Shown piece after piece: positions 204 through 55,695 of a stretch of DNA of 55,695 nt (positions within the stretch are counted from its first letter, which is position 1; each line of letters starts with the position of its first letter). Source of the stretch: Planctomycetaceae bacterium (lineage in GTDB: Bacteria > Planctomycetota > Phycisphaerae > SM23-33); NCBI GenBank assembly GCA_039680605.1, contig JBDKTA010000070.1:1-55695 (forward strand), in the 5' to 3' direction. The notes beneath the pieces were generated by a model, which worked only from the letters and a program-made list of their open reading frames with translations, made no database searches and was not told where the DNA came from. The translations under genes were made by a program, and so were the position numbers.

Positions 204-249
204 ATTGGCCGTTATGTATATTGACAATTCGCTGAAAATAAATTATAAT
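204..249 (+). promoter_or_regulatory. Rightward early promoter with upstream ATTGG box
   Basis: TTGACA (221-226), a 17-base spacer and TATAAT (244-249) match the sigma70 consensus perfectly. ATTGG (204-208) lies 12 bases upstream of the -35. It is divergent from the late promoter at 93-138, with about 70 bases between the two boxes that could hold shared operator sites. It serves the early operon beginning with the ribbon-helix-helix gene at 289. Confidence 0.88.
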
Positions 250-4610: not shown

Positions 4611-4669
4611 CACTCATAATCATCATTAACCAGGCGAGAGAGATGACCACAACACAGCCGATCCGATAT

Positions 4670-4698
4670 TTGACAACGTGCGCGAGGTATGCTAGAAT
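4670..4698 (+). promoter_or_regulatory. Own promoter of HNH gene 1
   Basis: TTGACA (4670-4675), a 17-base spacer and TAGAAT (4693-4698). The core GATATTTGACAACG (4665-4678) is identical over 14 bases to that of the HNH promoter at 39588 and shares GATATTTGAC with the one at 16817-16845. A transcript would start near 4705, at the first base of the leader stem. Confidence 0.82.
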
Positions 4699-4703
4699 GT
4701 ACC

Positions 4704-26968: not shown

Positions 26969-27916
26969 ATGAGCCGCACCGCGACGACAGCTATTTGTGA
27001 ATATTGCCATCAGCCATACAGTCTTCCCCAATGCAAGGTTGGCAAGCAACGATATTGCTCCCAGTCTTGCCGTGCCAAAGGGAGCCCCCCTCCCGGTATC
27101 CCCCAACCTAAAGAGAAGATTGCCAAGACTTGCCAATATTGCGGCAAGGAGTTTTTTGTCCATCAATACCGCGCTGATACAGCTAAGTATTGCAGCCGTT
27201 CGTGTCAACGGAGATCGCATCCGACGTACAACAGGACCCCGGATGCCATTCGCGCCGAGATTATTATTGCATATCGGGCGGGCGCTAATTCCCCGCAACT
27301 TGCGACTCAATACAATTGCGCGATAACCACAGTGTGCCAGATATTGAAACAGGCAGGCGTGAAATGCAGGCCCCAGATGGGAGGCTCTCTCCATACGCCA
27401 AAGGCCCGTGAAAGACAGCGACAGAACATGCCACGCGGCAAGGATCATCCCAACCACAAGGAGGTGCCAATTGGGGAGATTGTCACCAAATATTTGGCGG
27501 GAGTATCTACCCCCAAGATAGCCAGTGATTACGGCGTATCCGCCATATTTGTGGCGCGCAGGCTGGAAGCTGCCGGCATAGAACGCAGGCGCCCCGGCTA
27601 TCCCCATTGGTGTACCTGTCAAGATGGGCACGTTGCCCAATCCCACCTTGAACAAGCCATTGATGATTGGCTTTCCGGTTGCGGCATTGCCCATGAACTG
27701 CATCCCCTGTGCCCCTGGCCCGGCAAGAATCGCGCTGATTTCCTGGTCAATGGCACGTACATTGAAGTCTGGGGCCTGGAAGGCAATAAGCGTTATGATG
27801 CCAACCGCCTCAAGAAACTTGCAAAGTATCGAGAACACAACGCGCCGCTGATTCAAATCTTTCCTCATCATATTCTTGACGGTGATCTATCAACCGTCCT
27901 ACAGACTCTCCTATAA
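26969..27916 (+). CDS. Zinc-finger/Vsr-type homing endonuclease 3
   Basis: 315 residues: two treble-clef zinc fingers (CEYCHQPYS ... CSQSC and CQYCGKEFF ... CSRSC), a helix-turn-helix region with repeats (QLATQYNCAITTVCQIL; KIASDYGVSAIFVARRL), and a C-terminal Vsr-like nuclease (SHLEQAIDDWLSG ... NRADFLVNGTYIEVWG). The E-D-x-E set fits the EDxHD/PD-(D/E)XK homing type. It lies on the plus strand inside the leftward late operon, as a mobile insertion would. AGGAG lies 8 bases before ATG 26969. Confidence 0.8.
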   Translation: MSRTATTAICEYCHQPYSLPQCKVGKQRYCSQSCRAKGSPPPGIPQPKEKIAKTCQYCGKEFFVHQYRADTAKYCSRSCQRRSHPTYNRTPDAIRAEIIIAYRAGANSPQLATQYNCAITTVCQILKQAGVKCRPQMGGSLHTPKARERQRQNMPRGKDHPNHKEVPIGEIVTKYLAGVSTPKIASDYGVSAIFVARRLEAAGIERRRPGYPHWCTCQDGHVAQSHLEQAIDDWLSGCGIAHELHPLCPWPGKNRADFLVNGTYIEVWGLEGNKRYDANRLKKLAKYREHNAPLIQIFPHHILDGDLSTVLQTLL

Positions 27917-27984
27917 ACAAAAATGCCGCCTCCCGGCAGGCTCTAGGCTCTGCCAGTTGGCGGCGTTCCTCTCGGACTGCCGTT
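27917..27984 (-). terminator. Hairpin-terminator module 1 (shared with 47141-47204)
   Basis: Leftward RNA: AACGGCAGTCC-GAGA-GGAACGCC (27984-27962) forms a stem with a 2x2 inner loop. It is followed by GCCGCC...CTGGCAG...CTGCC...GGCGGC (27964-27925) and ATTTTTGTTT, an intrinsic terminator. The first stem's 3' arm shares three bases with the terminator's 5' arm. Identical 11- and 8-base blocks with a 4-base gap occur at 47204-47182. It follows the stop of the gene at 27993. Confidence 0.72.
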
Positions 27985-27992
27985 GTTGTCGG

Positions 27993-29027
27993 TTACGCCG
28001 TGATGCGCGTCACCGTCTGCCCTAGATTGAACTCGCCTTCGCTCACTACCGTATCGGCCCCGGCGGCGATGCCCGTTTTCACCTGCCACACCCGCCCGGC
28101 CCGAGGCGGGATTCCGGTCTGCGACTTGTTGACCACAATGGTGATGTTGCCCGCTACTGCATCGGTGACGGTCAGCGTCGCGTTGACCCCGACGCCCACC
28201 GCGCCGTTAATGTACTGCAAGCCGGCGGTCTCTTCGACCTGCAAGAATGACGCGGTATCGGCCTCCGTCGCCGGGTCGTCTTTCACGCCGAACCATAGCG
28301 ACGTGCGGCCTACCAGCGAGCCCAGGCCGCTGATATTGATCGTCCAGGTCGTATAGGGCCGGACGGTGATCCGCCCGCCGGCAATGACAGATACCACCGT
28401 GATCGTCGTGGCCGCACTCAACCAGTTGCGCAGCGCCTCAAGGCTGTCGGTCGTGTTGTTGTAGGTCGCGCCCGCCGTCGTGGCGTTGATCTCTGCCAGC
28501 GTCGCGGCGTCTGTCGTCATGCCCGCCAGCGCGCCCAGCCAATCGGCAAGCGAGGTGATCCCGGCAAAATAGGCGTTGGCTACGATGGCCGCCACGATCT
28601 CGTTTACGGCACTGAGAGCCAATTCGTCGGCGCCTATGGCATCGGTCGCGATGGCGTTGTTGGTGATGACACTGTTGTTGATCGCCGATACCGTGCAGGC
28701 CGCGTCAATTTCGGCGGCGTGGACAAACACCAGGGCAAAGCCGCTGCACCATTGCCCGCCTAGCGCATCCTCCCATTTGACCATGATGCGCCCGCCCGCC
28801 GCCGCTGCCGTCGTTTCAGCCGCAGACAGCACGACTTCGACCTGCGCCCCGGCAGCCGGGCTGACCGTCGGCAGGTTATCACAGTTTGCCCAGCCGCCGC
28901 CGTTGATCGACCGCTGAAAATCGCCAAGCGCCAGGGTTGGCGGCGTTTGCAGCAGTTTTGTGTCCGCTATCTGGTACAGGCAAACGCCAAAGGTGAAGGT
29001 TGACCCGGCAATCGCAACAGTTGACAT
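27993..29027 (-). CDS. Structural protein, fibre/baseplate-like
   Basis: 344 residues. N-terminal part (STVAIAGSTFTFGVCLYQIADTK) is followed by low-complexity Ala/Thr/Ile helices (NNSVITNNAIATDAIGADELALSAVNEIVAAI), as in trimeric fibres, and an Ig-like domain (WTINISGLGSLVGRTSLWFGVKDD). Probably a virion surface or fibre protein. ATG 29027 has a nearby GGAG-poor site; assignment by pattern. Confidence 0.55.
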   Translation of the reverse strand: MSTVAIAGSTFTFGVCLYQIADTKLLQTPPTLALGDFQRSINGGGWANCDNLPTVSPAAGAQVEVVLSAAETTAAAAGGRIMVKWEDALGGQWCSGFALVFVHAAEIDAACTVSAINNSVITNNAIATDAIGADELALSAVNEIVAAIVANAYFAGITSLADWLGALAGMTTDAATLAEINATTAGATYNNTTDSLEALRNWLSAATTITVVSVIAGGRITVRPYTTWTINISGLGSLVGRTSLWFGVKDDPATEADTASFLQVEETAGLQYINGAVGVGVNATLTVTDAVAGNITIVVNKSQTGIPPRAGRVWQVKTGIAAGADTVVSEGEFNLGQTVTRITA

Positions 29028-29314: not shown

Positions 29315-30049
29315 CTAAACGTCCGACCATCCAGCCGGCCCGCCTACTATCATCTGCCCGCCCCAGGTCGGCTCACCGGCCCCTTTGAACGTGCCATCAT
29401 TGCCCCCCGCCGATTCGTCGTCCAGGGCAACCCCCGCGCCGCCCTCGGTGCGGCCATTCCAACAGGCAACCGTCCAGGTGGCGGCGCTCAGTGGTTTGTG
29501 AAACGTGCCGGCGGCGTACAGGGCCGCCACGTTGATGATGCCCGGCGCTATCCCTATCGCCGCCAGTTGCCCATTCCAGCAGTACGCGTCGCTGTTGCCA
29601 CGCCCGATTTGGTTATAGACTAGATTGCCGACGGCAACACCAAGCGGAGCCGCCGTCACGTCTACTCCGTTTCTAAACACTGTCATCGTCGCCGGACCAA
29701 CCGGACAGACGGCGGCAAGGTGAGTCCAGGTCAGCGCCGCGCTGGCATTCGATTGAGCAGCACCGCCGAACGCATTGTAAATCAGGTTGCCGGCAGACAT
29801 CGCCAGTATAGGTCCGGCCGCTCCGTTTTTCCCAATCACCACGTCCCAGTTCCAGGCAGCGGTCCGTTTTGTCCAGGCCACGATGGTAAACGGCGGCGCG
29901 ATGGTGATACCGGCCAGCGAGATATAGTCATTTGCGCCGTCGAATGTCAGGTAGTAGCAGGGAAGAACAGGCGCCGCCCCGCCATACGCCCCGCTGATTT
30001 CCAGGTCAGAGCCGAACACGAGCGGCTGAGTGTGGCGCAAGATGATCAT
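29315..30049 (-). CDS. LamG/concanavalin-like adhesin
   Basis: 244 residues. The core (YLTFDGANDYISLAGITIAPPFTIVAWTKR ... WTHLAAVC ... MTVFRNGVDVTAAP ... NQIGRG ... FWNGQLAAIGI-like) is a laminin-G/concanavalin fold that binds glycans. It begins in ATGA overlap with the glycosyltransferase at 30046, tying a sugar-binding virion protein to the glycan block. Likely a decoration or receptor-binding protein. Confidence 0.75.
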   Translation of the reverse strand: MIILRHTQPLVFGSDLEISGAYGGAAPVLPCYYLTFDGANDYISLAGITIAPPFTIVAWTKRTAAWNWDVVIGKNGAAGPILAMSAGNLIYNAFGGAAQSNASAALTWTHLAAVCPVGPATMTVFRNGVDVTAAPLGVAVGNLVYNQIGRGNSDAYCWNGQLAAIGIAPGIINVAALYAAGTFHKPLSAATWTVACWNGRTEGGAGVALDDESAGGNDGTFKGAGEPTWGGQMIVGGPAGWSDV

Positions 30050-30681
30050 GCCCCATGCTCCCGGCACACAAACCACGGATGCGACCGACGCCGCCAGCCC
30101 ATGCCGCCGTTAATCGGGTTGACGCGCACCTTGTCGCCCATGAGCCAGCGCACATAATCGAAGCTCAGTTGGTCCCTGGCGCTGCCCTTGACGATCTCCG
30201 CCCACCATAGCGCCATGAACTCACGGACGGCGGGCGTGTCCCGTTTCGCCATGATGCACGTTTCGCCTAGCCCGAAATGGGCCGGGAATCCATCGGCCCT
30301 GTACCGCTCCATCTGCGCGTCTACGACCTCCGCCGCATCCTTGCCCTTCTTGACCACCCGCCGCGCCTCGCCATAGATGCAGTCGCCCGCCGGGTGTTTG
30401 AACAGCGCCAGATCGTAGCCGTCGAGCCACGCGCCAAGCACCTCCGCCACCGGAACAGCAAGCGCGATGTTACCGTCGATCCACAACGACTCCGCCGCCG
30501 GGAATGACAGCAGCTTGAACTGCCGTGCCGTGCGCCGCCGGTCTGTCTGCGGTATGGATGTCCATACCTCCCAGCCCTCGCACATCTGCCCGCCGGTGTA
30601 GGCGACGAACCGGCCCGGTACGGTCGGTGTTTGCAGTTTGTCGTAGCCGCCAAAGATAGCGGTGTAGGCTGCTTGATCCAT
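30046..30681 (-). CDS. Glycosyltransferase (DUF616/TOD1-like, GT-A)
   Basis: 211 residues: IFGGYDKLQTP at the start and RQFKLLSFPAAESLWIDGNIAL (DxN/DxD-like metal motif near residue 71) match DUF616 proteins, which resemble GT-A transferases; HFGLGETCIMAKRDT and FMALWWAEI follow as in that family. ATG 30681 is used; GTG 30687 is possible. The TACAAT box lies only 7 bases ahead, so the transcript may be nearly leaderless. Confidence 0.7.
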   Translation of the reverse strand: MDQAAYTAIFGGYDKLQTPTVPGRFVAYTGGQMCEGWEVWTSIPQTDRRRTARQFKLLSFPAAESLWIDGNIALAVPVAEVLGAWLDGYDLALFKHPAGDCIYGEARRVVKKGKDAAEVVDAQMERYRADGFPAHFGLGETCIMAKRDTPAVREFMALWWAEIVKGSARDQLSFDYVRWLMGDKVRVNPINGGMGWRRRSHPWFVCREHGA

Positions 30682-30687
30682 GCTCAC

Positions 30688-30722
30688 ATTGTACCTTGTC
30701 TAGCGGTTGCCCCTTTGCCGTT
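30688..30722 (-). promoter_or_regulatory. Late repeat-type promoter, copy 1
   Basis: Minus-strand AACGGCAAAGGGGCAACCGC (30722-30703), 9 bases, then TACAAT (30693-30688). The 20-mer is identical in three places (also 47218-47252 and 54662-54696), with the same 9-base spacing to a TATAAT-like box. No normal -35 is present. It lies between the sulfotransferase and glycosyltransferase genes. Confidence 0.7.
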
Positions 30723-39542: not shown

Positions 39543-39587
39543 TCTGTCAACCTCCTATTTCTTGCGCTGTCATAGGACAGCAGATAT

Positions 39588-39616
39588 TTGACAACGCGCC
39601 AATCCTATGATAGCAT
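39588..39616 (+). promoter_or_regulatory. Own promoter of HNH gene 4
   Basis: TTGACA (39588-39593), 17-base spacer, TAGCAT (39611-39616). The GATATTTGACAACG core (39583-39596) is identical to that of HNH1. It lies on the strand opposite to the late operon. Confidence 0.8.
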
Positions 39617-39648
39617 GTAACCCTACCAACAACTGGAGGCGCGTAACG

Positions 39649-40203
39649 ATGGAAGATGTTAGGGTATGCAAAAATCCAGATTGCCAATCTGGCGGAAAGC
39701 CGCAGCCGTTGTCTGCATTTCGCAAGAGCGGTAACAAGTATCGTGGGAAGTGTAAGGCGTGCGAGACAGAATATCAGCGCCAATACCGCACAACGGATGC
39801 GGGAAAGAAGGTATATACCGGCTGGAACAATAGCGATAAGGGCAAGGCGTCTATTCGCCGCTTCGACAAGAGCGAAAAGCGCCGCGATTCCCGCTTGCGC
39901 TATCGTACCGAATACCCAGATCGTTGGAAAGAGCAGTATCATCGTAACAATACCAGCGAACGGGCAAGAAAATACAGCAAGGAACGTCAAGCTAAAAAGG
40001 AATATCAGATCATAGTGGCCGCATCTGCCATAGTTGATGCAGCTATCCTGCGGGGCGAAATACCGACGCCAAAAAACTTGGCGTGCCTTGATTGTGGCAA
40101 GCGGGCGCGAGAATATCATCATCATAATGGCTACGATGATGCCCACGTGCTTGACGTTATTCCGCTCTGCCGTTCGTGCCATGCCCGCCGTCATGTTCGA
40201 TAG
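39649..40203 (+). CDS. HNH homing endonuclease 4
   Basis: 184 residues: an N-terminal Cys cluster (CKNPDC, CKACETEYQR), a basic middle, and a C-terminal HNH core (CLDCGKRAREYHHHNGYDDAHVLDVIPLCRSCHARRH). GGAGG (39635-39639) precedes ATG 39649. It is on the plus strand inside the minus-strand operon and overlaps the end of the glycosyltransferase at 40191 by 13 bases. The leader is short, unlike HNH1 and HNH2. Confidence 0.85.
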   Translation: MEDVRVCKNPDCQSGGKPQPLSAFRKSGNKYRGKCKACETEYQRQYRTTDAGKKVYTGWNNSDKGKASIRRFDKSEKRRDSRLRYRTEYPDRWKEQYHRNNTSERARKYSKERQAKKEYQIIVAASAIVDAAILRGEIPTPKNLACLDCGKRAREYHHHNGYDDAHVLDVIPLCRSCHARRHVR

Positions 40204-41840
40204 CCGTGCTCTTTTTCCCATTGTTCTACCACCGCCCATGCTGCCCTACTGTCTGAGCGGTCTATTACCTTACCTCTCCATCGCCTACTGGTCATGGGAA
40301 AATGTTTGAGCACCGCCGTTTTCTCTGCGTCGGGAATGCCCTCCATGCCGGCATACCTGACGATCAGGTTGTAAGGCCAATTCCCCAAGACGTACAGCTT
40401 GACCGGGTTGGCATACAGCGCCCGCAGCAGCGCCCCTTGATCGCGCTTGCCCCAGGCTTTCCATTCCTCGTGCCAGGCGTGAAAGAAGGCCGCCGTCCTG
40501 GCGTTGCGCTGGAAGGTAAAGACGCCCCCATTCAGTTGGATCAGCTCGCCACAGCCGATGGTGTTGAAGGTATGGTCGCACTCATCGGCGTTGTCTGACC
40601 GGCGCATCTCCCACGCGACGTGGTATTTGGCCGGGTTTTTGCAGATGACCATATCCCAACCGTCCATCAGGGCTTGCCACAGGAACGACGGGTCTTGCTG
40701 TAGCTCGGTGTCGCTGTCCATGTAGCCGATGTATTCCCACTCTGCCGGCGCCAGGTCATAGATCAGCGTCTTGGCGTGCCTGCCGCCAATGTCAACGTCC
40801 GGGCATTGGATGAACACATCCTCGCCCGCGTCAAGCGGCTCTGTGCCGATGACCGCGACCTCGATCCCCTTGGCGTGCTGCTTGAACGATGCAATCGCCG
40901 CTTTTGCGCACTCCCTGGACGGACCGCCATAGGCGACATAGACGACGCCGCGCCGGCCATGGCGGTCGCTCTCGATATGCTGTTCAAGGCTCATTTGGGC
41001 CAGGGCGATCTGGTGGTCGTTGGCCCACGAGTCGGCGGTATAGCCTTCGACGGCATGGCGCAGCGCCCCCCGGTCGCTGTCCGTTTTCAGCGCCTCTTTC
41101 AGCGCCCGGCACATGTCGCCGTAATCGCCGGCCTCGTAGCGGTGGACGCCGGGCATGTCGGGCAGGTCGTCAAGCATCCCGACGCCCTTGGGGATGACAA
41201 CGGGCACGCCGCAGGCCAGCGCCTCAAGCGGCGGCATGGGCACGCCTTCGACGGTGCTGGTACACAGAAACACGTCCAGGCTGTTGTACCAGGCCGGCAG
41301 CGCCTCCCATTCCAGCGTCTCGGTATCGACCGGCCAGCCCTTGCCGATGGCCTTGACGGCCCACTTGCCGGACCTGTCGCCGGCCAATTTCGCCACGAGC
41401 TTTTCGCCCTTGCGCCCGCCGGGGTGGACGTAGCCGGCAACGCCGATCACTGGCTTGTCGTTCTTGGCGCGCTCCGTAATCACGAACTGCGGGTCAATCG
41501 GCGGCTTGGGGCACAACGCGACCGGGCCATACTCTGACAACTCGGCCAGGTACTGGCGGGCAGCGGTGATGCGCATGTCCACATTATTGCAGGCCAGCTC
41601 CCACCAAAAGTGCTTCCACGGGACGTGCGTCTCGTGGTGAGTGAACCAGGCCGCGACCGGGGTCACGTGCCAATCGCTGAACTTTTCGGCAAATTCGACG
41701 TAGCAGATAAAGTAGGTGATGTCGGCTTGCCCATTCGGCGTGCGGGTGTATGTCCAGCCGGTCGTATCGGCCAGGATGCGCGCCAGCCGGTCAAGGACCG
41801 TGCCCTTGCCGATGCCAGAGTAGACGATGTTGGCGTTCAA
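40191..41840 (-). CDS. Two-domain glycosyltransferase (GT-B plus GT-A)
   Basis: 549 residues. The first 310 form a GT4-like GT-B domain (PVIGVAGYVHPGGRKGEKL, LDVFLCTSTVEGVPMPPLEALACGVPVV). The remainder is a GT-A domain with YIGYMDSDTELQQD (DSD metal motif), QLNGGVFTFQRN and RDQGALLRALYANPVKL. TTG 41840 is chosen because of GGAG seven bases ahead and the 4-base overlap with the upstream stop. Fused transferases of this kind add two sugars in sequence. Confidence 0.82.
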   Translation of the reverse strand: MNANIVYSGIGKGTVLDRLARILADTTGWTYTRTPNGQADITYFICYVEFAEKFSDWHVTPVAAWFTHHETHVPWKHFWWELACNNVDMRITAARQYLAELSEYGPVALCPKPPIDPQFVITERAKNDKPVIGVAGYVHPGGRKGEKLVAKLAGDRSGKWAVKAIGKGWPVDTETLEWEALPAWYNSLDVFLCTSTVEGVPMPPLEALACGVPVVIPKGVGMLDDLPDMPGVHRYEAGDYGDMCRALKEALKTDSDRGALRHAVEGYTADSWANDHQIALAQMSLEQHIESDRHGRRGVVYVAYGGPSRECAKAAIASFKQHAKGIEVAVIGTEPLDAGEDVFIQCPDVDIGGRHAKTLIYDLAPAEWEYIGYMDSDTELQQDPSFLWQALMDGWDMVICKNPAKYHVAWEMRRSDNADECDHTFNTIGCGELIQLNGGVFTFQRNARTAAFFHAWHEEWKAWGKRDQGALLRALYANPVKLYVLGNWPYNLIVRYAGMEGIPDAEKTAVLKHFPMTSRRWRGKVIDRSDSRAAWAVVEQWEKEHGYRT

Positions 41841-44806: not shown

Positions 44807-46105
44807 CTAGCTGCCCGTCGCGGCGTCAAGGATGACGAACGGCGAGATTTGCGTGGTTCCGTCGCTCAACCGGAGCGGCTGGGACAGCCATTCCTGCCCG
44901 TCGACGCGATGTACCGCCCGCCAGGTGGTCAGGTCATAGCGGAACTTGTAGTGCTTCGAGGCGTCGATGGTCGTTGCCTGGCGGTCGCCGACGAGGTAGT
45001 ACCGGCAATCGGCCAGGATGATGTCGCCGCGGTTGCCCAGCAGCGGGCAGTGCTCGTTGTAGAACACCGGATAGCCGAACAGCGTGCCAGGCATACCGTC
45101 GCGGGCGTTCGGGATGAACACATAGGACGGGTTGCCGGCCGGGCCGTTCAGTTGGAGCAGGGACGGCAGCGCCGACTTGGTGATGAACCAAACCGGGTTT
45201 CCGTAGCTGTGTTCCAGCATGTTGATGATGTCGACCAGGCCGATAGCGCCCACAACGGCCCTGCCCTGGGCGAACGTACCGGGCGCGCCAATGATGCCCA
45301 TCGGTTGGCCGGCGCCGGTGCCGTTGATGAACGCCTCTTCCTCGTACCAGGAGATCGAGCCGGTGAAGAGCTGCGACAGCAGCGCCTCCAAGGATACGGC
45401 GGAATCCTCAAGCAGCTCGTCTGACGCTTCGGTCAGGCACACCAGCTTGTGGGCCACGAGGTTGATCTGGCGGAACTGCGGATCGGATTCGTCCTTGTAG
45501 GCCGCCTCTTCGGTCCAGTGGCCAAGGACGCCGCCGAACCATGCCGGGCGTCCGGCCGTGGTGTTGGTCTGGTCCAGGACGGGCCATTGAATCTGGCGCC
45601 GCCGCATCGGGACGATGGTTGCCCGCGGGCGGACCTGGAGATCGGGCGCGGGCAGCTTCAACAGCTCGGCCCGCTGCTCGACCGGGACCAGGAAGCCGCC
45701 GGACGCGCCGACGTTCTCTACCAGGTCCTTCGTTTCCTTGCTCTCCCAACCCTCTTTCATCTGGGTTGGCGGCTCGCTGTTGTCCTGAAACGAGGTCAGG
45801 CGCGGGTCGTAGCGGCCTTTGAATGAGGCCGCATGGACGCCGGTCAGCATCTCGCCGAGCGACTTCCAGGTCTTGGGACCCGGCGCGCTCTTGGTCTGGC
45901 CCATGGTCAACAGGTCTTGGCGGCTGCGCTCCAGATCGCCGATAGCGGCGGCCTTTTCGCGGAGTGCCTTGACCTCGACCACGAGGGCCAGGAATTTGGC
46001 GTTTTCCTCACCGCTCGCGTCCGTCTTGGCGGCCAGGGCTTCGGCCTCGGCCATCTTCAGACTTGCGGCGGCCAGGAGATCGGTCTGAGAAGTGCTCAGA
46101 TTCAT
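44807..46105 (-). CDS. HK97-type major capsid protein
   Basis: 432 residues. An N-terminal coiled-coil delta domain (LLAAASLKMAEAEALAAKTDASGEENAKFLALVVEVKALREKAAAI), removed by the protease in HK97-like phages, precedes the capsid fold (GGFLVPVEQRAELLKLPAPDLQVRPRATIVPM, ASDELLEDSAVSLEALL, GTGAGQPMGIIGAPGTF). ATG 46105 fits GGAGG seven bases ahead better than GTG 46111. Confidence 0.92.
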   Translation of the reverse strand: MNLSTSQTDLLAAASLKMAEAEALAAKTDASGEENAKFLALVVEVKALREKAAAIGDLERSRQDLLTMGQTKSAPGPKTWKSLGEMLTGVHAASFKGRYDPRLTSFQDNSEPPTQMKEGWESKETKDLVENVGASGGFLVPVEQRAELLKLPAPDLQVRPRATIVPMRRRQIQWPVLDQTNTTAGRPAWFGGVLGHWTEEAAYKDESDPQFRQINLVAHKLVCLTEASDELLEDSAVSLEALLSQLFTGSISWYEEEAFINGTGAGQPMGIIGAPGTFAQGRAVVGAIGLVDIINMLEHSYGNPVWFITKSALPSLLQLNGPAGNPSYVFIPNARDGMPGTLFGYPVFYNEHCPLLGNRGDIILADCRYYLVGDRQATTIDASKHYKFRYDLTTWRAVHRVDGQEWLSQPLRLSDGTTQISPFVILDAATGS

Positions 46106-46107
46106 AG

Positions 46108-47121
46108 TCACACCTCCGTTAGTTCTAGCTTCAATCGTTCGATCATCGCCTGCTTCTGCCGTGGGTGGAGGTCCGGCCCGGCGGCAGCCTTTGGCTTCTC
46201 TTCATCGCCCTCGTCGGGCGGTTCGGATTCTTCGTCGTAATCGGCCCATTTCAGGAAGGCGTCCAGCGTCGCCATTGCCGCCCGCGCCTCTTCGAGCTTT
46301 TCCTTGCGGACGCGGCGGCCGGCCTTGGCCTCTTCGGGCGGATCGGCGCTATCCAACACAACGGCATGGACCGCGCCTGTCCCGGCGGCCGGCAGCTTGC
46401 GCCGGCGTCGCTTGCGCTTCTCTTCGTCGTCGTCTTTGGTGCCCTCGGCGAACATGCCCACACACATGGCAACAGCCTGGTCTTGCTCGCGGCCCTCGTT
46501 GACCATGGCCGGGATGCAGCGGGCCATGAATGCCTCTTCGGTTTCGTCGTCGCCGGGCTTGACCTTGGCCTCGTCGGCAGCGGGCGCGGCGTCCTTGGCG
46601 GAGAGGTTAGCTGTAGCAGAATTCATACCCCAGATCACGTCACTCCACTCAAAAAGTTTCAGTTCTTTCAACTCCCTGATTGTCTTTTTCCCTTGTGCCG
46701 TGTCAACGCTTGAATACTCGGCAATGATCGGGTCGTAGCCAATCGAGGCTTCGTCAACCGCCCCCTCACGGATAAGGGTAAAGACTTCGCGCCCCGGCTG
46801 TGTGCCCAAGATGTATTGCGCCTTGACCCATAGGCCGCCAGTTGCGTCGGGATATTTCAGCAGCAGATCGGGTGGCAATTCAGCCCGGTTCAATTCGCGC
46901 ATTTCCAGCGTCTTGGCTACGACGTTGCGCACGCTCCTGCTATCGTGCTGATCGAGACCCTTTATCTTTAGGCCGCGTTCTTGGATGGTCTTGCTGAAAG
47001 CTCCATTCCAGATACGGTCATTTCCCTGGTCAATGTTGCCCATGACGGCGACGATCTTTTCAACGATGCCCTGCGCTTCGTCAATCGGCCCGATGTAGGA
47101 TGCAAATTGTTTGTGTTCCAT
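46108..47121 (-). CDS. HK97-type prohead protease with long acidic C-terminus
   Basis: 337 residues. His59 (LDQHDSR) and Ser126 (VDEASIGYDP) form the S78 peptidase catalytic pair, with GRIWNGAF-like wording before. The last 160 residues are charged and Lys/Arg/Glu-rich, possibly a scaffold. It cleaves the capsid delta domain during maturation. It is preceded by a hairpin-terminator leader (47141-47204). Confidence 0.9.
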   Translation of the reverse strand: MEHKQFASYIGPIDEAQGIVEKIVAVMGNIDQGNDRIWNGAFSKTIQERGLKIKGLDQHDSRSVRNVVAKTLEMRELNRAELPPDLLLKYPDATGGLWVKAQYILGTQPGREVFTLIREGAVDEASIGYDPIIAEYSSVDTAQGKKTIRELKELKLFEWSDVIWGMNSATANLSAKDAAPAADEAKVKPGDDETEEAFMARCIPAMVNEGREQDQAVAMCVGMFAEGTKDDDEEKRKRRRRKLPAAGTGAVHAVVLDSADPPEEAKAGRRVRKEKLEEARAAMATLDAFLKWADYDEESEPPDEGDEEKPKAAAGPDLHPRQKQAMIERLKLELTEV

Positions 47122-47128
47122 GCTTACC

Positions 47129-47204
47129 CCCTAAACGCAAAACGCCAGCCCTGGGCCGTCTTGCGACTGGCTCAAATGGCTGGCGTTCCGTGTGGACTGC
47201 CGTT
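47129..47204 (-). terminator. Hairpin-terminator module 2 in front of the protease gene
   Basis: Leftward RNA: AACGGCAGTCC-ACAC-GGAACGCC (47204-47182) forms one hairpin. AACGCCAGCC (47187-47178) pairs with GGCTGGCGTT (47150-47141), followed by TTGCGTTT, as the terminator. The two structures share AACGCC and exclude each other, as in attenuators. The module starts about 7 bases after the predicted transcription start of the promoter at 47218. Confidence 0.75.
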
Positions 47205-47217
47205 ATACGTCTAGTGT

Positions 47218-47252
47218 ATTATACTGTGCCGGGCGGTTGCCCCTTTGCCGTT
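47218..47252 (-). promoter_or_regulatory. Late repeat-type promoter, copy 2
   Basis: Minus strand: AACGGCAAAGGGGCAACCGC (47252-47233), 9 bases, TATAAT (47223-47218). The same 20-mer stands at 30703 and 54677. It encodes TAKGQPPGTV, the C-terminus of the small gene at 47219, whose stop lies in the TATAAT. It drives protease and capsid genes. Confidence 0.78.
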
Positions 47253-47362
47253 TTTCGCAGCTCCGCCGTCCGTGGCGATATGCCCAGCTCGCGCTCAAGT
47301 GCATCGACCAGCATGAGCAGCGCCTGGCGCACGGCAACCCAGAACTCGCGGCCTGGGGTCAT
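47219..47362 (-). CDS. Small protein ending in the late-promoter repeat
   Basis: 47 residues (PGREFWVAVRQALLMLVDALERELG ...). Its last residues TAKGQPPGTV are encoded by the repeated promoter element; the gene at 54663 ends the same way (TAKGQPPNVP). Start in ATGA overlap. Function unknown. Confidence 0.55.
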   Translation of the reverse strand: MTPGREFWVAVRQALLMLVDALERELGISPRTAELRKTAKGQPPGTV

Positions 47363-47577
47363 TTCCCTAGCTCCAAGATGGTCACGGTTGCGATGCTGCT
47401 GCCCTTGAATAGCTGTTCCCATTGCGCCTTGAGTTCTTGCAGCTCACCACACGACAACGGACCCTCTACCACAATCCCGGCCTCGCTGAAATCGCCTAGC
47501 GGGATAAAGTCACCGTCGGCATCTGGCGCGCCGGCCAGCGTGGTGAGCGTAATGTTGCCGGTAGATTGGATGGTCAT
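47359..47577 (-). CDS. Hypothetical small protein
   Basis: 72 residues, mixed (TIQSTGNITLTTLAGAPDADGDFIPLGDF ... FKGSSIATVTILEL). Both ends in ATGA overlap. Could be a small head protein; no family recognised. Confidence 0.5.
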   Translation of the reverse strand: MTIQSTGNITLTTLAGAPDADGDFIPLGDFSEAGIVVEGPLSCGELQELKAQWEQLFKGSSIATVTILELGK

Positions 47578-48698: not shown

Positions 48699-50943
48699 CG
48701 TCCATCACCGGCAGAATAGTACAGCGGCAATTGCACACCTCTTCAGCCGGTGCGTTCATGTCGCCTGGGTATTCCATGTCATAGCCGCCAACCCGAAACG
48801 GCTCGCCTACTTCGACGACCTGCCCATTGGCTGCGCCGTGGCTATCGCGTTGCCTGCCGTCTATCGCGGTTAGCCATTCTTTGCGCTTGACGCCCCAGCC
48901 CTTGTAGATGGCATTGCTGCCGTATGCTGAGCTGCGGATGGTTTCCGTTCGGGCGATCACCTCTCGTCTATAGGCCGGCATACGTTCTTTGTACCAGGCG
49001 AAATCTTCCGGCGATAGGCTGCCATTCATCCATTGCTCAAACATCTTGTCCAGGTTGTCGGTCATTTCGTCGATTGACCAGCCCTCGGTCATGCCCTGCT
49101 GTAGCATAGAGCGGACCGATCCTTCTGTCGTCTCGGCTATCTTTTGCGCGAACGGGATCAAGTAGGTGTCGAAAAATGCCTCAGAAAACAGATTACGCAC
49201 GTCAAACGATATGCCGAATGCGGCATTCAGCATTTGCCCTTGGTCGGTAACAATCGCCTCAATCAGCGGCCAAAACTGCTTGCGCCAGTTCTCTTGGCTA
49301 TCCCCGGCGATGTAGGCCAGGATCATGTCCAGCAGCTCGCCATAGTTCAGCGTCGCCTTGCGCGCCTTGCTCTTGCCCTTGGCGTCCGCGACCAGGGCCA
49401 GGATAGCGCGGCGGTCATCCTCGAAAGCCTGGACGGCCGCCTCGCTGAACTTGGGCTCCCAACGGCGGGCGATGTTGTCTTGCTGTTTCCAGAGTAGGGC
49501 TTTTTGGTCGGGGGTCAGGGTGGATTTGGTTTCGGCGGGCGCGGTCGCCTTCCCCTCCGCCTCTTCGCCCTCGCTCTCCGTTATCGTTTCTTGCCCGGTC
49601 GGCTCCGCCTCTTCGGCCTGGGTCGTGCGTGCCGGGATGGCGGCTTGGCGCTGTCCGGCACCTAGCAGCGACGTTACCGGCACGGAGTTGAAGGGCAAGA
49701 ACCCCACGTCATCACCGGGGAATCTGTCGGCCAATTCTACGCCAACCGTCTTGGCGGCGACTGTCCAGGGCATACCACGATCCCATGCTTCGCATATACT
49801 GGTCATCAGTTTCGGGGTGTCTTTGCGCAAGGCCGGCACATTGGCAAAGTCAAACTCCACAAACGAGCCGGCGACGGTGGGTAGCTTGCTCTGGTACTCT
49901 GTCTCGAATAGGCCCATTTCGGGAACCATCGTATCTTCCCAGAATGCCTTGCGCGCCTCTTCGTAGTTGCTGAACGTGCTGCGCTCCATGCCGTACCGGG
50001 TGCTAATCAGCACGGCCGGCACGCCGAACGGAGCGACCATGCGCGATTCGTCGCGGCTGTCGATGTTCTCAAAGCCCATCTCGTTGAACGCCAGGCCCAC
50101 CCGCTGGTACTTGCCGCCCTGGTCCAGCACGGCGGTATCTGACCAGTTCTCATAGCCGCCGTAAACCTCCATCCAACGCTCGCGGGCACTGGCCACTTCG
50201 TCGTTGGTCATGGGCACGTCAAACGACAGCACGCCGGGGATCATCGCGCCATGCTCAAAAAAGAGCTTGAGAAACTTGGTCGCGGCGTTGTCTACGTCGG
50301 CAGACCAGGCCATCGGGCTGATAGGCGACAGGCCCCAGCCCAGCCCTTCCAGCGGGTCGCCGGGGTTGGGCAAGCGGACGTGGATCATGTCTTGGGGCAG
50401 GATCGGGAAAGCGTCAACCCATGACTTGCCCTCGGGTGTGTAGAGGTAGCCCTTGAGCGTGTTGCGCGGCCCCGGCACAATGGCGACGCGATCCGGCCGT
50501 AGGGCATACAGCGACGTGGGCGCGCCGTCCTTGCGAACCTTGTTGTCGACGTAGACAAATGAGTTGCCGATCAGGTTCAGGAATACGGTGTTGAGCATCT
50601 GAAACTCTGACCAGGCCATGAACTCGTTTGGCTGCCGGCACAGCGCGGCGAGGGGTGCGGCATCGGGCAGCGTGATGTGTTCGTCACGGTTGCCAGCGTA
50701 GGCGCGCAGAGGTGCGACACAAGCGGCGCGGGCCTTATACATGATTGCGCTGTAGATGATCGCGTTTTGCTCAAAGCCTTCCTGTACATAGGCTTCGGCG
50801 TTGACGATCGACCACTGCGGTTGACCGGAACGCCACGACGGCCAGTAGAACGGCGCTTGCTTGCGCTCGATTGCCGGCCAGCCGTGGCGGTAGTAGGCGA
50901 CTGCCTTTCTCAGGCGCTCGATTGCTGATGGTTTGTTAGCCAA
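48685..50943 (-). CDS. Portal protein fused to a MuF-like head morphogenesis domain
   Basis: 752 residues. Residues 1-430 are a portal (WSEFQMLNTVFLNLIGNSFVY, VRLPNPGDPLEGLGWGLSPI, FFEHGAMIPGVL, ISTRYGMERSTFSNYEEARKAFWEDTMVPE). After an acidic linker, residues about 480-752 resemble the minor head/MuF family, ending in ARTETIRSSAYGSNAIYKGWGVKRKEW, DGRQRDSHGAANGQ and CNCRCTILPV. In most phages these are two genes. TTG 50943 follows GGGGGG by six bases. It forms the DNA channel of the capsid. Confidence 0.88.
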   Translation of the reverse strand: MANKPSAIERLRKAVAYYRHGWPAIERKQAPFYWPSWRSGQPQWSIVNAEAYVQEGFEQNAIIYSAIMYKARAACVAPLRAYAGNRDEHITLPDAAPLAALCRQPNEFMAWSEFQMLNTVFLNLIGNSFVYVDNKVRKDGAPTSLYALRPDRVAIVPGPRNTLKGYLYTPEGKSWVDAFPILPQDMIHVRLPNPGDPLEGLGWGLSPISPMAWSADVDNAATKFLKLFFEHGAMIPGVLSFDVPMTNDEVASARERWMEVYGGYENWSDTAVLDQGGKYQRVGLAFNEMGFENIDSRDESRMVAPFGVPAVLISTRYGMERSTFSNYEEARKAFWEDTMVPEMGLFETEYQSKLPTVAGSFVEFDFANVPALRKDTPKLMTSICEAWDRGMPWTVAAKTVGVELADRFPGDDVGFLPFNSVPVTSLLGAGQRQAAIPARTTQAEEAEPTGQETITESEGEEAEGKATAPAETKSTLTPDQKALLWKQQDNIARRWEPKFSEAAVQAFEDDRRAILALVADAKGKSKARKATLNYGELLDMILAYIAGDSQENWRKQFWPLIEAIVTDQGQMLNAAFGISFDVRNLFSEAFFDTYLIPFAQKIAETTEGSVRSMLQQGMTEGWSIDEMTDNLDKMFEQWMNGSLSPEDFAWYKERMPAYRREVIARTETIRSSAYGSNAIYKGWGVKRKEWLTAIDGRQRDSHGAANGQVVEVGEPFRVGGYDMEYPGDMNAPAEEVCNCRCTILPVMDDAQA

Positions 50944-52243
50944 CGAATACCCCCCTTGGCCCGTCCAGGTACATTACCGCATACCGCATAGCATCCATGC
51001 CGTGATCGTTCTCTTTGATTGGAGCCTCTTTCACTATGCGGCCCGACGGGTCTTTGGGCCAGACATAGCCGGTGAACTCATCTTCTGTGCAAGTCGGGCG
51101 CTTGTCGTGCTCTAGGTTTGGGTCGTATTCAACCGACGAACCGCGCATCAAGAACAAGCGCGGCTTGCCGTCATTTGCAATTTTCAGGCGCGATTGGACG
51201 GCCTGGATGCCCGGCGATACGTCCTTCTTTGCCGGCCTGGTTGTCACGCCGTACTTTTCCAATGTGGCCCTGTCCTCTGCGTCGTGATCTGCAACCGTCG
51301 CCTCGATCTTTTCCCCCTCGCTCAGCCTGACAATGTGCCGGGCGTGATCCTCTACCAGCTTGCGGGTGTGGTAAATCTCCCGGTAACGGTATGCCCGCCC
51401 GTCGCCGTCCATCGCCCACCACTGGCAGACAAAAGCGTTGGTGTACCCAAAATCTATCGCCCTGATTCGCCGCCATTCCGCCGGGATGTCAAACCTGTCA
51501 ACAACATGGATCGCCTGGTCGAATGTGTCATAGACCGCGCCCTCAGCTTGTATCCATTGGCCCAACGCCAGCCGCTTGTGCAAAACGCCGGTCAGCCCGG
51601 CCAATGTCTCGCTGTACGACGCCGGGTTGTGCCAGTTGTCGGTAGCGGAGCTGTAATAGACCTTCGCCCCGCCGCCGCTGATAAGCCGTTTGTAAATCCA
51701 ATGCGTCGGCGAGTCCGGGTTGGTGGTCAGCACGATCTGGAGCCACGGCGCCGCCTTGCCGCGCATACGGGTCAGGATTTCGTTATAGTCATCCTCAACA
51801 AAGCGGGTCGCCTCTTCCATCCATACGATGTCAAGCGCCCCGTCTTGCCCGATGCTCCTGATTTGCTCCCGCTGCTGTTCGTCGGCCATGCCGCCATAGG
51901 CCAGGATCGAGCCGTTGTCATACTCGAATCGGTGCTTGCTCGGGTAGTGCCGGACCTGCGGGTCGCGGCCTATCACCGCCCGGTCCATGAAAAGGACCGT
52001 GCTGTTGGTCATCGAGTCGCGGGTCTTGCGGAGCATCAGGCCCATCGCGCCGGGATAGCGTTTCATGTAGCCGTGCAGCTTCTCGGCCGCCAGCCGTGAT
52101 TTGCCGCCGCCCGCGCTGCCGGTAAACAGCACAACCGGCGAGGTGTCCCGCCACGGCTCGACCTGCCAGGACAGCGGGTTGAATCTGGCTATGATTTTGG
52201 TGTTAAGGTTCTGTCGGCCAATCGTCGGGCGAGATGCTAACAT
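50936..52243 (-). CDS. Terminase large subunit
   Basis: 435 residues: Walker A TGSAGGGKS (41-49), Walker B LDIVWMEEATRF (137-148), motif III VLTTNPDSPTHW, and the RNase H-like nuclease with AIDFGYTNAF, VADHDAEDRA and DHGMDAMRYA. It packages and cuts concatemeric DNA. ATG 52243 overlaps the small subunit by 41 bases. Confidence 0.95.
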   Translation of the reverse strand: MLASRPTIGRQNLNTKIIARFNPLSWQVEPWRDTSPVVLFTGSAGGGKSRLAAEKLHGYMKRYPGAMGLMLRKTRDSMTNSTVLFMDRAVIGRDPQVRHYPSKHRFEYDNGSILAYGGMADEQQREQIRSIGQDGALDIVWMEEATRFVEDDYNEILTRMRGKAAPWLQIVLTTNPDSPTHWIYKRLISGGGAKVYYSSATDNWHNPASYSETLAGLTGVLHKRLALGQWIQAEGAVYDTFDQAIHVVDRFDIPAEWRRIRAIDFGYTNAFVCQWWAMDGDGRAYRYREIYHTRKLVEDHARHIVRLSEGEKIEATVADHDAEDRATLEKYGVTTRPAKKDVSPGIQAVQSRLKIANDGKPRLFLMRGSSVEYDPNLEHDKRPTCTEDEFTGYVWPKDPSGRIVKEAPIKENDHGMDAMRYAVMYLDGPRGVFVG

Positions 52244-52643: not shown

Positions 52644-52883
52644 TCATTCTGCGCTCGCGTTCGTCTGGTCAGCGCAGGTGATGGTTATTGTTGTGTCGTG
52701 TGGCGGCTGGCAGGTCGGCTCTCCGATCCACCATGTGCCACCGTAGGGCCACCACTGTTTGGCCTCCAATGCCGCTACCCGCTCTTCCAGCGCCTTGATG
52801 CGCTTGAGCAAGTACTTGACTTTGAGCTTCTTTTTCACGGCCTTACCCCCGACGATGTAGCAATCTGCCATGTCGCCTCTCAT
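52644..52883 (-). CDS. Small protein with basic coiled coil
   Basis: 79 residues. KKKLKVKYLLKRIKALEERVAALEAK (about 16-41) is a basic coiled coil, then a Trp/Gly segment (WWPYGGTWWIGEP). ATG 52883 overlaps the upstream stop. Function unknown. Confidence 0.5.
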   Translation of the reverse strand: MRGDMADCYIVGGKAVKKKLKVKYLLKRIKALEERVAALEAKQWWPYGGTWWIGEPTCQPPHDTTITITCADQTNASAE

Positions 52884-53152
52884 TTCGGCACCCAAAACGC
52901 CGTGGCTCTGCGCTTGGTCGTCGTATCCATCCGTTGGGCACATTCCAACTGTCCGGCCTTGACCATCTCAGCCAATAACCTCTCTGCAAAGTTGCGGCTC
53001 ACCCGCCGCCGCTCGGCAAACTGGGTGATGGTGAACTCGTGAGCGGCTATCGGCGGCGGGATGTCTGCCAGCCTGGCCGCCGCGTCAATCGCCTCTGCCC
53101 TGGCCAGCAAATCTTCGGCGGTCACATTGCCAAACGGCCTCACTTCGTCCAT
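52880..53152 (-). CDS. Winged-helix DNA-binding protein
   Basis: 90 residues. FTITQFAERRRVSRNFAERLLAEMVKAGQLE (about 40-70) is a helix-turn-helix with wing. It may regulate the late operon or act as a DNA-binding partner of the terminase. Start overlaps the phosphoesterase gene by 13 bases. Confidence 0.6.
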   Translation of the reverse strand: MDEVRPFGNVTAEDLLARAEAIDAAARLADIPPPIAAHEFTITQFAERRRVSRNFAERLLAEMVKAGQLECAQRMDTTTKRRATAFWVPK

Positions 53153-53964
53153 GCTACCCTGTTTCTCGGCCTGAAGCGCAGCTCGTATGGCGTCCAGGTC
53201 CCGTCCTTGCAAAACAGCCGCAGCCCGCCCGGCGGCTCGACCTTTGGCGTGTGCAGCTTGCCGTTGACCCACGCCGTCGGCAATTGCCAAGCTGGGCAGA
53301 AATGGCAATAAAGCGACTCAAAGAAGCCTCGTGCCCGGATGTGGACATGGTGAAAGATGGCGACGTGTGGCGGCGGAGTGCCTATCTTGGCATATTCGAT
53401 CCATAGGTATTCGGCCTCTCTGGCGGCCCCGCTGTCCACCTTCGACGGGATGCGGCTCACGGTGCCCGGCGCGTGCTTCTCCTGGATGCGAACCCCGTCT
53501 ATCTCGTCGGTCCAGATCCACCACGAGAACTGCTGCCCGTTGCGAACCACCGGCCAGCCCCGCTCTGCCAGCGTCTCGGCGTACCGTTCGTCTCCGTTGG
53601 AGGCCGGCCCGTCGTGCGCCGGCGTCCCTCGCAGAAACACCGCGCCGTCAAGCACCGGCCTGGCAACCGCCAATGCCTGGTACACCGCCCGATCCTGGTC
53701 GTGCTCGTTTTTGGCCCATAACTGCGTTGTGCCGTGGTGATCTCCGTCGCGCAGGTCGCCGCCGAATACGGCAAGCACGGGACAACCGAGCTTTTCCTTC
53801 AGTCGCGCAGTGTCTGCCCAGAACGCGCACCAGCACTCCCAGAACCACAGCATCTCTTTCGGCGGCTGATACGTGCCGCCATCGTCCAGGCGCACAATTG
53901 GCGGGCACAGGGCAAGCGTCGATCCGACGTGCAGATCGCCGACGTGTACGGTTAGCGTTGCCAT
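53140..53964 (-). CDS. Metallophosphoesterase (calcineurin-like)
   Basis: 274 residues with the metal-site motifs GDLHVGS (residues 8-14), FGGDLRDGDHHG (about 66-77), RGTPAHDG (about 110-117) and FHHVHI (about 218-223). They cleave phosphoester bonds in nucleotides, DNA ends or lipids. ATG 53964 begins the fold. A 113-base gap (53965-54077) upstream holds nothing I recognise. Confidence 0.82.
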   Translation of the reverse strand: MATLTVHVGDLHVGSTLALCPPIVRLDDGGTYQPPKEMLWFWECWCAFWADTARLKEKLGCPVLAVFGGDLRDGDHHGTTQLWAKNEHDQDRAVYQALAVARPVLDGAVFLRGTPAHDGPASNGDERYAETLAERGWPVVRNGQQFSWWIWTDEIDGVRIQEKHAPGTVSRIPSKVDSGAAREAEYLWIEYAKIGTPPPHVAIFHHVHIRARGFFESLYCHFCPAWQLPTAWVNGKLHTPKVEPPGGLRLFCKDGTWTPYELRFRPRNRVAWTK

Positions 53965-54077: not shown

Positions 54078-54356
54078 TTAAGGTGCGGCTGCCCTGCGTT
54101 GCTTTGCCATGATGCACGGCCGCCCGGCAACCTCTTTCTCGTGCTCTGTCATGGTCTCTTGCATAGACGCGAGCCGGGTATTGCCGTTGGTCTGTAGTTG
54201 CTCCATCCGCGCCAGAATCTTGGCTATCTCAAGCAGTGACCCGTTGACCTTTTCGGTCCACTTGTCGAGCTGCTTATTCCAGATGACAAGCAGGGCGATG
54301 ATCACGCCCGCGACGGGCATCTGGGTGAACAGCGCCTCCCACATCGCCTCGGTCAT
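54078..54356 (-). CDS. Single-span membrane protein, XhlA/holin-partner-like
   Basis: 92 residues: one hydrophobic segment (VAGVIIALLVIWN, about 15-27), then a coiled coil (LLEIAKILARMEQLQTNGNTRLASMQETM). This is the layout of holin-associated proteins. It overlaps the next membrane protein by ATGA. Confidence 0.6.
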   Translation of the reverse strand: MTEAMWEALFTQMPVAGVIIALLVIWNKQLDKWTEKVNGSLLEIAKILARMEQLQTNGNTRLASMQETMTEHEKEVAGRPCIMAKQRRAAAP

Positions 54357-54631
54357 GGTTCGTCCTTCTTGCAGCAATCGCCGCCGATAAATAGGGAATT
54401 AGCCGTGTCGATCTTGGCGATCATCTCCATGTTGGCTTTATCCTCGTAGGCAATGGCGGCGATGACCGTCACGAACACGGGCTGCGTCGCGGCCCACGTT
54501 GCCATAATGAGCTTTGCTGTGGCTTCGTCAACGAGCGTGCCGACCCACAGGCCCAGGATTGCGGCGATAGCGTCCAGAATGGCGAGCCAGAACTTGCGGC
54601 TACGGAGTAAGACTTTGAACGGATTTTCCAT
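54353..54631 (-). CDS. Holin-like membrane protein
   Basis: 92 residues with two hydrophobic segments (FWLAILDAIAAILGLWVGTLV, about 14-34; KLIMATWAATQPVFVTVIAAIAY, about 40-62), basic at the start and acidic/Lys at the end, a class II holin topology. GGGAGGGG precedes ATG 54631. It would permeabilise the membrane at lysis. Confidence 0.65.
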   Translation of the reverse strand: MENPFKVLLRSRKFWLAILDAIAAILGLWVGTLVDEATAKLIMATWAATQPVFVTVIAAIAYEDKANMEMIAKIDTANSLFIGGDCCKKDEP

Positions 54632-54661
54632 GATTATCCCCTCCCGTTTATGTTCTATCAC

Positions 54662-54696
54662 ATTATGGCACGTTGGGCGGTTGCCCCTTTGCCGTT
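54662..54696 (-). promoter_or_regulatory. Late repeat-type promoter, copy 3
   Basis: Minus strand: AACGGCAAAGGGGCAACCGC (54696-54677), 9 bases, CATAAT (54667-54662). Identical 20-mer and spacing to the copies at 30688 and 47218. It precedes the holin-like genes and terminase module. The element also encodes the last residues of the gene at 54663. Confidence 0.72.
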
Positions 54697-54893
54697 TGCG
54701 TGCAAATCGTCCATTTGCCGTCGTCGTCGCGGTATATCGGGACCATGCGCGATATTCTGTTGAGCATGTCCCGAGCCGAGCGGTCGGTTATGCCGACGAT
54801 GCGAGCGGCGTCTTGCGCCGTCACCCGCTTGCCGATGGTCAGTAGGTAGACCAGCACGGCAACTCTCTCGCTTGGGGTGCAGGGGTCTAACAT
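54663..54893 (-). CDS. Winged-helix regulatory protein
   Basis: 76 residues: SERVAVLVYLLTIGKRVTAQDAARIVGITDRSARDMLNRISR is a helix-turn-helix of the winged type, and the wing follows (VPIYRDDDGKWTI). It ends TAKGQPPNVP, encoded by the late-promoter repeat. ATG 54893 follows the upstream stop; ATG 54956 in frame is possible. A candidate regulator of late genes. Confidence 0.55.
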   Translation of the reverse strand: MLDPCTPSERVAVLVYLLTIGKRVTAQDAARIVGITDRSARDMLNRISRMVPIYRDDDGKWTICTQTAKGQPPNVP

Positions 54894-54897
54894 GGCG

Positions 54898-55542
54898 CTA
54901 GTCGCTGGGTGCGCTGTCTTTCTTGCCTGGTGCGGCGCATGATTCGATGCCTTCATACCATCGACCGTTAACCACCAACGCGGACGGGCACCATTTGCTC
55001 TCTATGAAGTTTCGGGCGGCCGTTTCGCTAGTCCCTTGCGCCATGAGCCACGCGACAAGCTCTTCACTTGTGGCGAATACCGGACTTATCGGCGAGCCTT
55101 CCGATACGGTTTCCCAGACCTGCCAGCCGTCGCCCTCTAGCGGCTCTGTCTTTTCCCAGGCATCGGCAAGCTCTTTGTACCCAGGGGCCAAGCCGCTGCC
55201 GTTGCACTCCGGGCACCTTTCCCAATCCTCTGGAAGATTGGCAAGCGTGGCGAGCTTATCGACCGCCGCCCACGCATCCATACTGTCATGGCCTAAACCG
55301 CTACGAAGCCCAGACCTGCCACACAGCCATTCGGTGAGCTTGGCATACTCTGGAAACTTGCGGAGGTTGTCGGTATCCCACAAGAGATGGTTGACGTGCT
55401 CAGATATGGCCCAATAGGCCCCAGACCACCCGGCCCGACATGCCGGGCATTTATGGCTATCATACTCACAGACGTAGCCATCCCATACCTTTCCAATCGG
55501 CCAATCGAAATCTAGCGGCACCCGTTTGATTTCCCTGCTCAT
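54898..55542 (-). CDS. Phage protein of unknown function, first late gene
   Basis: 214 residues. The start SREIKRVPLDFDWPIGKVWDGYV and the inner zinc motif (CPACRAGWSG; CPECNGSGLAPGYKEL, a DnaJ-type zinc finger) are common in a family of phage proteins of unknown role. ATG 55542 has GAAAGGAGAGAAC. It is the first gene after the leader terminator. Confidence 0.7.
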   Translation of the reverse strand: MSREIKRVPLDFDWPIGKVWDGYVCEYDSHKCPACRAGWSGAYWAISEHVNHLLWDTDNLRKFPEYAKLTEWLCGRSGLRSGLGHDSMDAWAAVDKLATLANLPEDWERCPECNGSGLAPGYKELADAWEKTEPLEGDGWQVWETVSEGSPISPVFATSEELVAWLMAQGTSETAARNFIESKWCPSALVVNGRWYEGIESCAAPGKKDSAPSD

Positions 55543-55568: not shown

Positions 55569-55695
55569 AACAAAAAGCGCCGCCGTGCCAACGCACGACA
55601 GCGCCTATGCGGTTTGTCAAGCCCCCTTGTGCCTTTTGCACACATAATTCCCATGCCTAGAGTATAGCATACCGCCGGCCCGCTGTCAATAGGTT
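55569..55695. repeat. Right copy of the 127-bp terminal direct repeat
   Basis: Identical to 1-127. It contains the late promoter core (55661-55689) and the leader terminator (55572-55604) in genuine position relative to the first late gene at 55542. Confidence 0.93.

Follow-up and report, generated by a model that had tools for sequence, protein, structure and literature searches.

Late gene blocks of a circular phage contig

The window, that is, the whole stretch of DNA analysed here, is the complete 55,695-nucleotide contig JBDKTA010000070.1. Its two ends are identical over 127 nt (1-127 and 55569-55695), an assembly overlap which shows that the contig closes completely into a circular molecule of 55,568 bp. 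Three late gene blocks on its minus strand are each preceded by an exact copy of the same 20-mer, AACGGCAAAGGGGCAACCGC, and these sites are referred to as P1, P2 and P3 (Table 1). P1 lies upstream of the terminase/portal block, P2 before the protease S78 and capsid genes, and P3 before genes encoding a TOD1/MUCI70-like glycosyltransferase and a Laminin_G_3 protein. The initial annotation had placed every copy at the head of a late block, which it named holin/terminase, protease/capsid and glycan/adhesin. The terminase, protease/capsid and glycan/adhesin assignments hold, whereas 'holin' is a label given by eye alone to the small membrane protein at 54353-54661, for which no family match was found.

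By signatures that we take to be diagnostic, the 16S sequence of this assembly appears to be planctomycetal. The phage contig could have been wrongly binned; the link is supported by a related phage contig (C35) in a sister genome of the same bacterial family (G031), to which it is 25-54% identical in its genes for portal, protease, capsid and tail. Among the viral contigs, 260 relatives of the terminase were found, of which 80 were kept, together with 15 of the capsid protein. No relatives of the portal protein or of the proteins encoded at 54898 and 54663 were found in the viral contigs, and none of the portal and capsid proteins in the genome contigs.

Elsewhere in the same phage, consensus promoters of the form TTGACA-17-TATAAT appear to serve early genes. 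The rightward example near the start of the window matches at 12/12 positions, those at +4670, +13316, -4915 and -55689 at 11/12 each, and that at +39588 at 10/12. Two of these promoters, at 4665-4701 (+) and 39583-39619 (+), are similar to one another (TTGACA-17-TAG(A/C)AT), have GATATTTGACAACG in common and directly precede an HNH-type gene, the second of these HNH labels having been given by eye. The second lies inside the minus-strand late region and, for this reason, the open reading frame at 39547-40239 (-) is probably spurious. At 55575-55689 (-), a near-consensus leftward promoter, whose expected +1 coincides with an ATG, has a strong intrinsic terminator (14 pairs and a T tract) no more than ~80 nt behind it, ahead of the gene at 54898-55542. 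Such an arrangement points to antitermination or to a short leader RNA.

Table 1. Coordinates of the repeated box, the associated promoter elements, the leader RNAs and the neighbouring genes in the window.
Feature	Position	Strand	Remarks
20-mer box P1	54677..54696	-	exact copy, about -41 to -22
-10 box P1, CATAAT	54662..54667	-	TGC in front gives an extended -10, at P1 only
20-mer box P2	47233..47252	-	exact copy
-10 box P2, TATAAT	47218..47223	-	9 nt after box
20-mer box P3	30703..30722	-	exact copy, intergenic
-10 box P3, TACAAT	30688..30693	-	9 nt after box
Canonical early promoter, TTGACA-17-TATAAT	221..249	+	12/12, internal contrast
Canonical leftward promoter, TTGACA-17-TATACT	55661..55689	-	upstream of candidate activator gene
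97-aa winged-helix protein, candidate activator	54663..54956	-	gene 3' end forms the P1 box
Small membrane protein, first gene after P1	54353..54661	-	holin-like by eye; likely ATG 54631
Terminase large subunit (P1 block)	50936..52243	-	
Small ORF ending in P2 box	47219..47422	-	homologues in relatives lack TAKGQPP
Terminator-like leader RNA, P2 to protease gene	47135..47217	-	cmsearch 62.6 bits (in model); fold z -5.1
Prohead protease (P2 block)	46108..47121	-	Peptidase_S78
Major capsid protein (P2 block)	44807..46111	-	Phage_capsid
Glycosyltransferase-like, first gene after P3	30046..30687	-	TOD1_MUCI70
Laminin_G_3 protein (P3 block)	29315..30076	-	domain match
Second leader/terminator copy, after last P3-block gene	27916..27997	-	60.4 bits (in model)

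The 20-mer and the geometry of the predicted promoters

All three copies reported in the initial annotation are present, each on the minus strand, and a search of the window allowing up to three mismatches returned these three matches (shuffle mean 0.02). No 20-mer of the 55,568-bp circle other than AACGGCAAAGGGGCAACCGC is present three times or more, the longest triple repeat in 30 order-3 Markov simulations being 12-14 nt, and the shuffle and simulation counts together rule out a chance origin. The rest of the 5.23-Mb assembly holds no copy at up to two mismatches. A search of relatives, which the initial annotation had proposed, found no copy in any of them, and conservation of the box is thus known from three copies in one genome. 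In the viral contigs the 17-mer core had three matches, none with a correctly placed -10, and a combined search for core and -10 gave two matches, both unrelated. Among 397 genomes of the class, 12 others had one two-mismatch match each, counted as sequence matches alone. Repeats in two relatives, L078 and L085, were rejected as their sequences differ from the 20-mer, and so was a GGCAAAGGGCA that precedes TATAAT in L232 at the position of P2. Its distance is off by 2 nt, it occurs once in the 10-kb record, and the match is likely due to chance or to coding. The terminase relative L085 has an element of its own, 28 nt long and present three times (7620, 12851 and 15606) near gene starts, where it is followed by (T/G)AATAATG; it bears no sequence relation to the 20-mer. 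A literature search combining the 20-mer with planctomycete phages returned no paper.

The gap between the box and the TATAAT-like hexamer, given as 9 bases in the initial annotation, measures exactly 9 nt in each of the copies. These hexamers match TATAAT at 5/6 (P1), 6/6 (P2) and 5/6 (P3) positions and are canonical sigma-70 -10 elements in this respect. Hexamers within one mismatch of TATAAT number 67 on the minus strand, or 0.12% of its positions, and with 30 offsets considered, three at one common offset would have a P of about 5e-8, which is a post hoc figure. The claim that a normal -35 is missing is likewise borne out, the best match to TTGACA in any copy at spacers of 15-19 nt being 1/6. 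In pairwise comparisons the box is identical at 20/20 positions and the -10 hexamers agree at 4-5 of 6, whereas the 9-nt spacers agree at 3, 3 and 4 of 9, which is background level; the 30-nt upstream flanks agree at 5-9 of 30. As the box and -10 have been kept whilst the spacer has drifted to background, this is not the pattern expected of neutral duplication. At P3 the -10 is followed by N6 and then ATG, which places the expected +1, at 30681, on the A of the start codon, and the glycosyltransferase mRNA may therefore be leaderless.

That two copies also encode the final codons of the upstream gene is evident from the translations: at P1 and P2 the box is read in one and the same frame as TAKGQPP, and the TAA stop codon falls within the -10 hexamer. 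A shared coding sequence or mobile repeat without regulatory role, or a conserved peptide tail, could in principle account for such an arrangement, and the 23 nt common to two of the copies, as well as the ending GGKGQ of the small open reading frame in L232, are consistent with it. The P3 box, however, starts one base past the TGA of a sulfotransferase gene and is intergenic. The P2 small-ORF homologues in seven relatives have R-T-(A/G/S)-E-(L/I/M)-R-(K/H) in common, and TAKGQPP is absent from all seven of those listed, the tails of those other than L232 being unrelated to it. In the P1 gene the peptide forms the low-confidence end of the winged-helix model (mean of 49 in the last block, against a core near 90). 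Given in addition that the spacer has drifted whilst the box and -10 have not, a coding repeat is the least probable of the explanations considered here and is largely refuted. The outcome that the initial annotation had named as fatal to a promoter, a repeat conserved in amino acids but not in bases, is not what is found; the promoter reading is well supported by the fixed geometry, by the drifting spacer beside an invariant box, by the promoter that some relatives have at the corresponding site and by ordinary -35/-10 promoters in other parts of the phage.

The P2 position in relatives and its leader RNA

The P2 position, defined as the interval that separates the small ORF from the gene for the protease or scaffold, was compared in 17 relative loci: 13, left from 15 elements once the two in the window had been set aside, were searched over 130 nt upstream with spacers of 15-19, L035, L036 and L037 over 300 nt with spacers of 16-18, and the G031 phage was added to these. 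The set includes near-duplicates (L118/L119 and L035/L036/L037). A -35/-10 pair matching at 10/12 positions or better is present in 4 of the 17 loci, namely L185 (TTGACA-17-CATAAT), the G031 phage (TTGACA-17-TAAGAT) and L118 and L119 (TTGTCA-17-TACAAT), where the pair lies further upstream with other sequence between promoter and leader. Pairs of 9/12 were found in L164, with a 15-nt spacer, in L199, and in L232, the last with a -35 of 3/6, and the remaining 10 loci reach at most 8/12, that is, no good -35/-10 pair. As promoter pairs occur in some but not all of these loci, the predicted promoter at the P2 position is old, yet not universal, and by this comparison the box at P2 of the window occupies the place at which a -35 has been kept in a few relatives.

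The interval from P2 to the protease gene holds a terminator-like leader RNA, an 84-position element that begins ~10 nt or less from the expected P2 start. It consists of an A-rich lead, GGCAGTCC-N4-GGAACGCC, a variable stem-loop and then GGCGTTTT. A pattern search, which matched at least 120 stretches, together with inspection yielded further copies in the viral contigs. Where downstream open reading frames were listed, the gene following the leader is, by eye, a prohead protease or scaffold in 9 of 10 loci; in the tenth (L164) the first listed frame is ~1 kb away and uninformative. A covariance model that included the sequences of the window, L118 and L121 was run on 97 sources (1.1 Mb) not fetched by the pattern. 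Besides the known copies it returned three that were new, one apiece in L035, L036 and L037 and all immediately ahead of a protease homologue, as well as one weak match in L030; positions in relatives are L035:5867, L036:6615, L037:8719, L118:1365 and L121:7391. In four further protease loci (L120, L125, L126 and L130), the stretch immediately preceding the protease gene lacks the leader as well as a promoter of the kind described above. In an alignment of nine matches (seven distinct, L030 included), 93.4% of cells pair and 10 are changed on both sides, counts that are biased toward the structure of the model to which the alignment was fitted; neither value is reached in any of 500 shuffles, and slid controls fall far below. 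Rfam gave no match at gathering score in the window and none up to E 5 around P2, and in five other leader loci only a weak sroD match in L195, below the gathering score. Two members used as blastn queries had no match in cultured phages, and a search of 392 genomes of the phylum found the two copies of the window, one borderline match and no others.

The leader resembles an attenuator or terminator, and transcripts from P2 would thus probably meet a second control step. Its GGCAGTCC-N4-GGAACGCC region, in which L118 has one compensatory change, might fold into a small hairpin as a competitor of the terminator stem, and the leader as a whole may possibly act as an attenuator for the capsid block.

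Proposed activation of the late promoters and its alternatives

In T4 middle promoters, a MotA box stands in for the -35 beside a good sigma-70 -10; it is described as about 9 bp long and centred at -30, has TGCTT as its core and lies at a distance of 12 +/- 1 bp from the -10 (PMC2988021). At Mu late promoters the activator C serves several promoters that have a poor -35 and a common upstream site, the C site lying upstream of the -35 (PMC4461284), whilst the Mor-dependent middle promoter of Mu has a 16-bp element centred at -43.5 (PMC4390567). Judged against these descriptions, P1-P3 resemble T4 middle promoters in having a phage box where the -35 would be, beside a good sigma-70 -10, and Mu late promoters in being several predicted late promoters with a poor -35 and one upstream site in common. 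Unlike the MotA box, however, the present box is 20 bp long, GC-rich, centred near -31.5 and rigidly conserved, and both its sequence and its 9-bp distance from the -10 differ from the TGCTT core at 12 +/- 1 bp. Unlike the sites of Mu C and Mor, it extends from about -41 to -22, and no clear inverted repeat is apparent by eye. MotA and AsiA had no match among the phage proteins scanned with Pfam or PHROGs. As length, sequence and position of the box all differ, the three promoters are members of neither the T4 middle nor the Mu late class as these sources define them; on the same descriptions, they are best read as promoters that would work like one or the other, without a common sequence. At the cII-dependent promoters of lambda, and in the case of Alt of lactococcal TP901-1, the activator occupies a phage promoter over its -35 region. 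Judged by eye, the present box contains an imperfect GGCAA repeat of 8-bp period and not TTGC-N6-TTGC.

Promoter activity and late timing of P1-P3 are predicted from sequence, and we infer that a phage activator binding the box is the best explanation of their geometry. It is probable that P1, P2 and P3 are co-regulated late promoters for lysis/packaging, protease/capsid and glycan/adhesin genes, respectively, with the 20-mer as their upstream half and a phage DNA-binding protein replacing the -35 contact. The main sigma factor of the host RNA polymerase would contact the -10 box, whilst a phage protein made earlier from a canonical promoter would bind the 20-mer and supply the contact otherwise given by the -35 hexamer. 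The late blocks would then switch on together, only once this protein is present.

The initial annotation named two winged-helix proteins, encoded at 54663 and 52880, as possible activators. The former remains the most likely, leading candidate: its AlphaFold model has a confident core (pLDDT about 90) and a poor tail (about 49), with winged-helix matches in the PDB, none below E 0.001. Its gene has a canonical leftward promoter upstream and P1 directly downstream, and many phages keep a late activator gene at this position. No homologue was found at the tested thresholds in named phages, viral contigs or 34 other genomes of the family. The protein at 52880-53308 lies downstream of the box and is less likely. 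Other candidate binders are the products of 3398-3748, an early phage protein with a weak match to a sigma-70 region-4-like helix-turn-helix (E 0.0019, below the curated cut-off), 289-489, which has a ribbon-helix-helix look by eye with no meaningful Pfam match, and 54898-55542.

The same helix-turn-helix match at 3398-3748 would also fit a different reading, in which the 20-mer is recognised by an alternative sigma factor of host or phage, or by a host regulator. This is unlikely, as the -10 boxes are of ordinary sigma-70 type and as the box is found nowhere else in the assembly at up to two mismatches, the latter arguing against a host regulon with a strict site, although not against one with degenerate sites. 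An operator at which a repressor silences the late promoters would likewise be identical and fixed in register at -41 to -22, but a repressed promoter would still require a workable -35, of which there is none, making such an operator very improbable.

A further possibility is that the 20-mer loads a phage factor onto polymerase for read-through of terminators, in the manner of lambda Q. The terminator-like RNA after P2 and the strong hairpin with T tract right behind the leftward early promoter are in keeping with this, as are the CxxCxGxG zinc motif of the 54898-55542 protein and its weak match to a Q-like PHROG (E 0.0095). That match, however, is a single short motif of 15 residues in a protein whose structure model is too poor to be of use. 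Q-type sites sit on promoters that are able to fire unaided, whereas P1-P3 lack a -35, and, whilst a terminator-like hairpin follows P2, no comparable one was seen after P1 or P3. Antitermination through the 20-mer is accordingly quite unlikely. Against an activator that replaces the -35 contact, it may be held that the possibly leaderless P3 and the terminator-like hairpin after P2 both call for extra assumptions, that the 20-mer was found in no relative and that 10 of the 17 relative loci have no good -35/-10 pair at the P2 position.

A tentative evolutionary scenario, more doubtful than the activator itself, is that of a lineage-specific takeover, in which the capsid block of this phage originally had a sigma-70 promoter of the ancestral type, which some relatives still have together with its -35, and in which a 20-bp box serving a new phage activator has taken the place of that -35. 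Two other late blocks carry this box as well, and in two of its three copies it would have overwritten the last part of a gene. With P2 feeding the conserved attenuator-like leader, control of initiation and of early termination would then act in series.

If the activator model is true, the late-gene switch of an uncultured environmental phage would be readable from its sequence alone, and the box would provide a defined DNA site with which to pull down its activator. A sigma-70 promoter in which the -35 has been swapped for a private box, whilst some relatives have a -35, would represent a case for the rewiring of a phage regulon. The P2 leader RNA, present in diverse uncultured phages, may be a wider phage control element.
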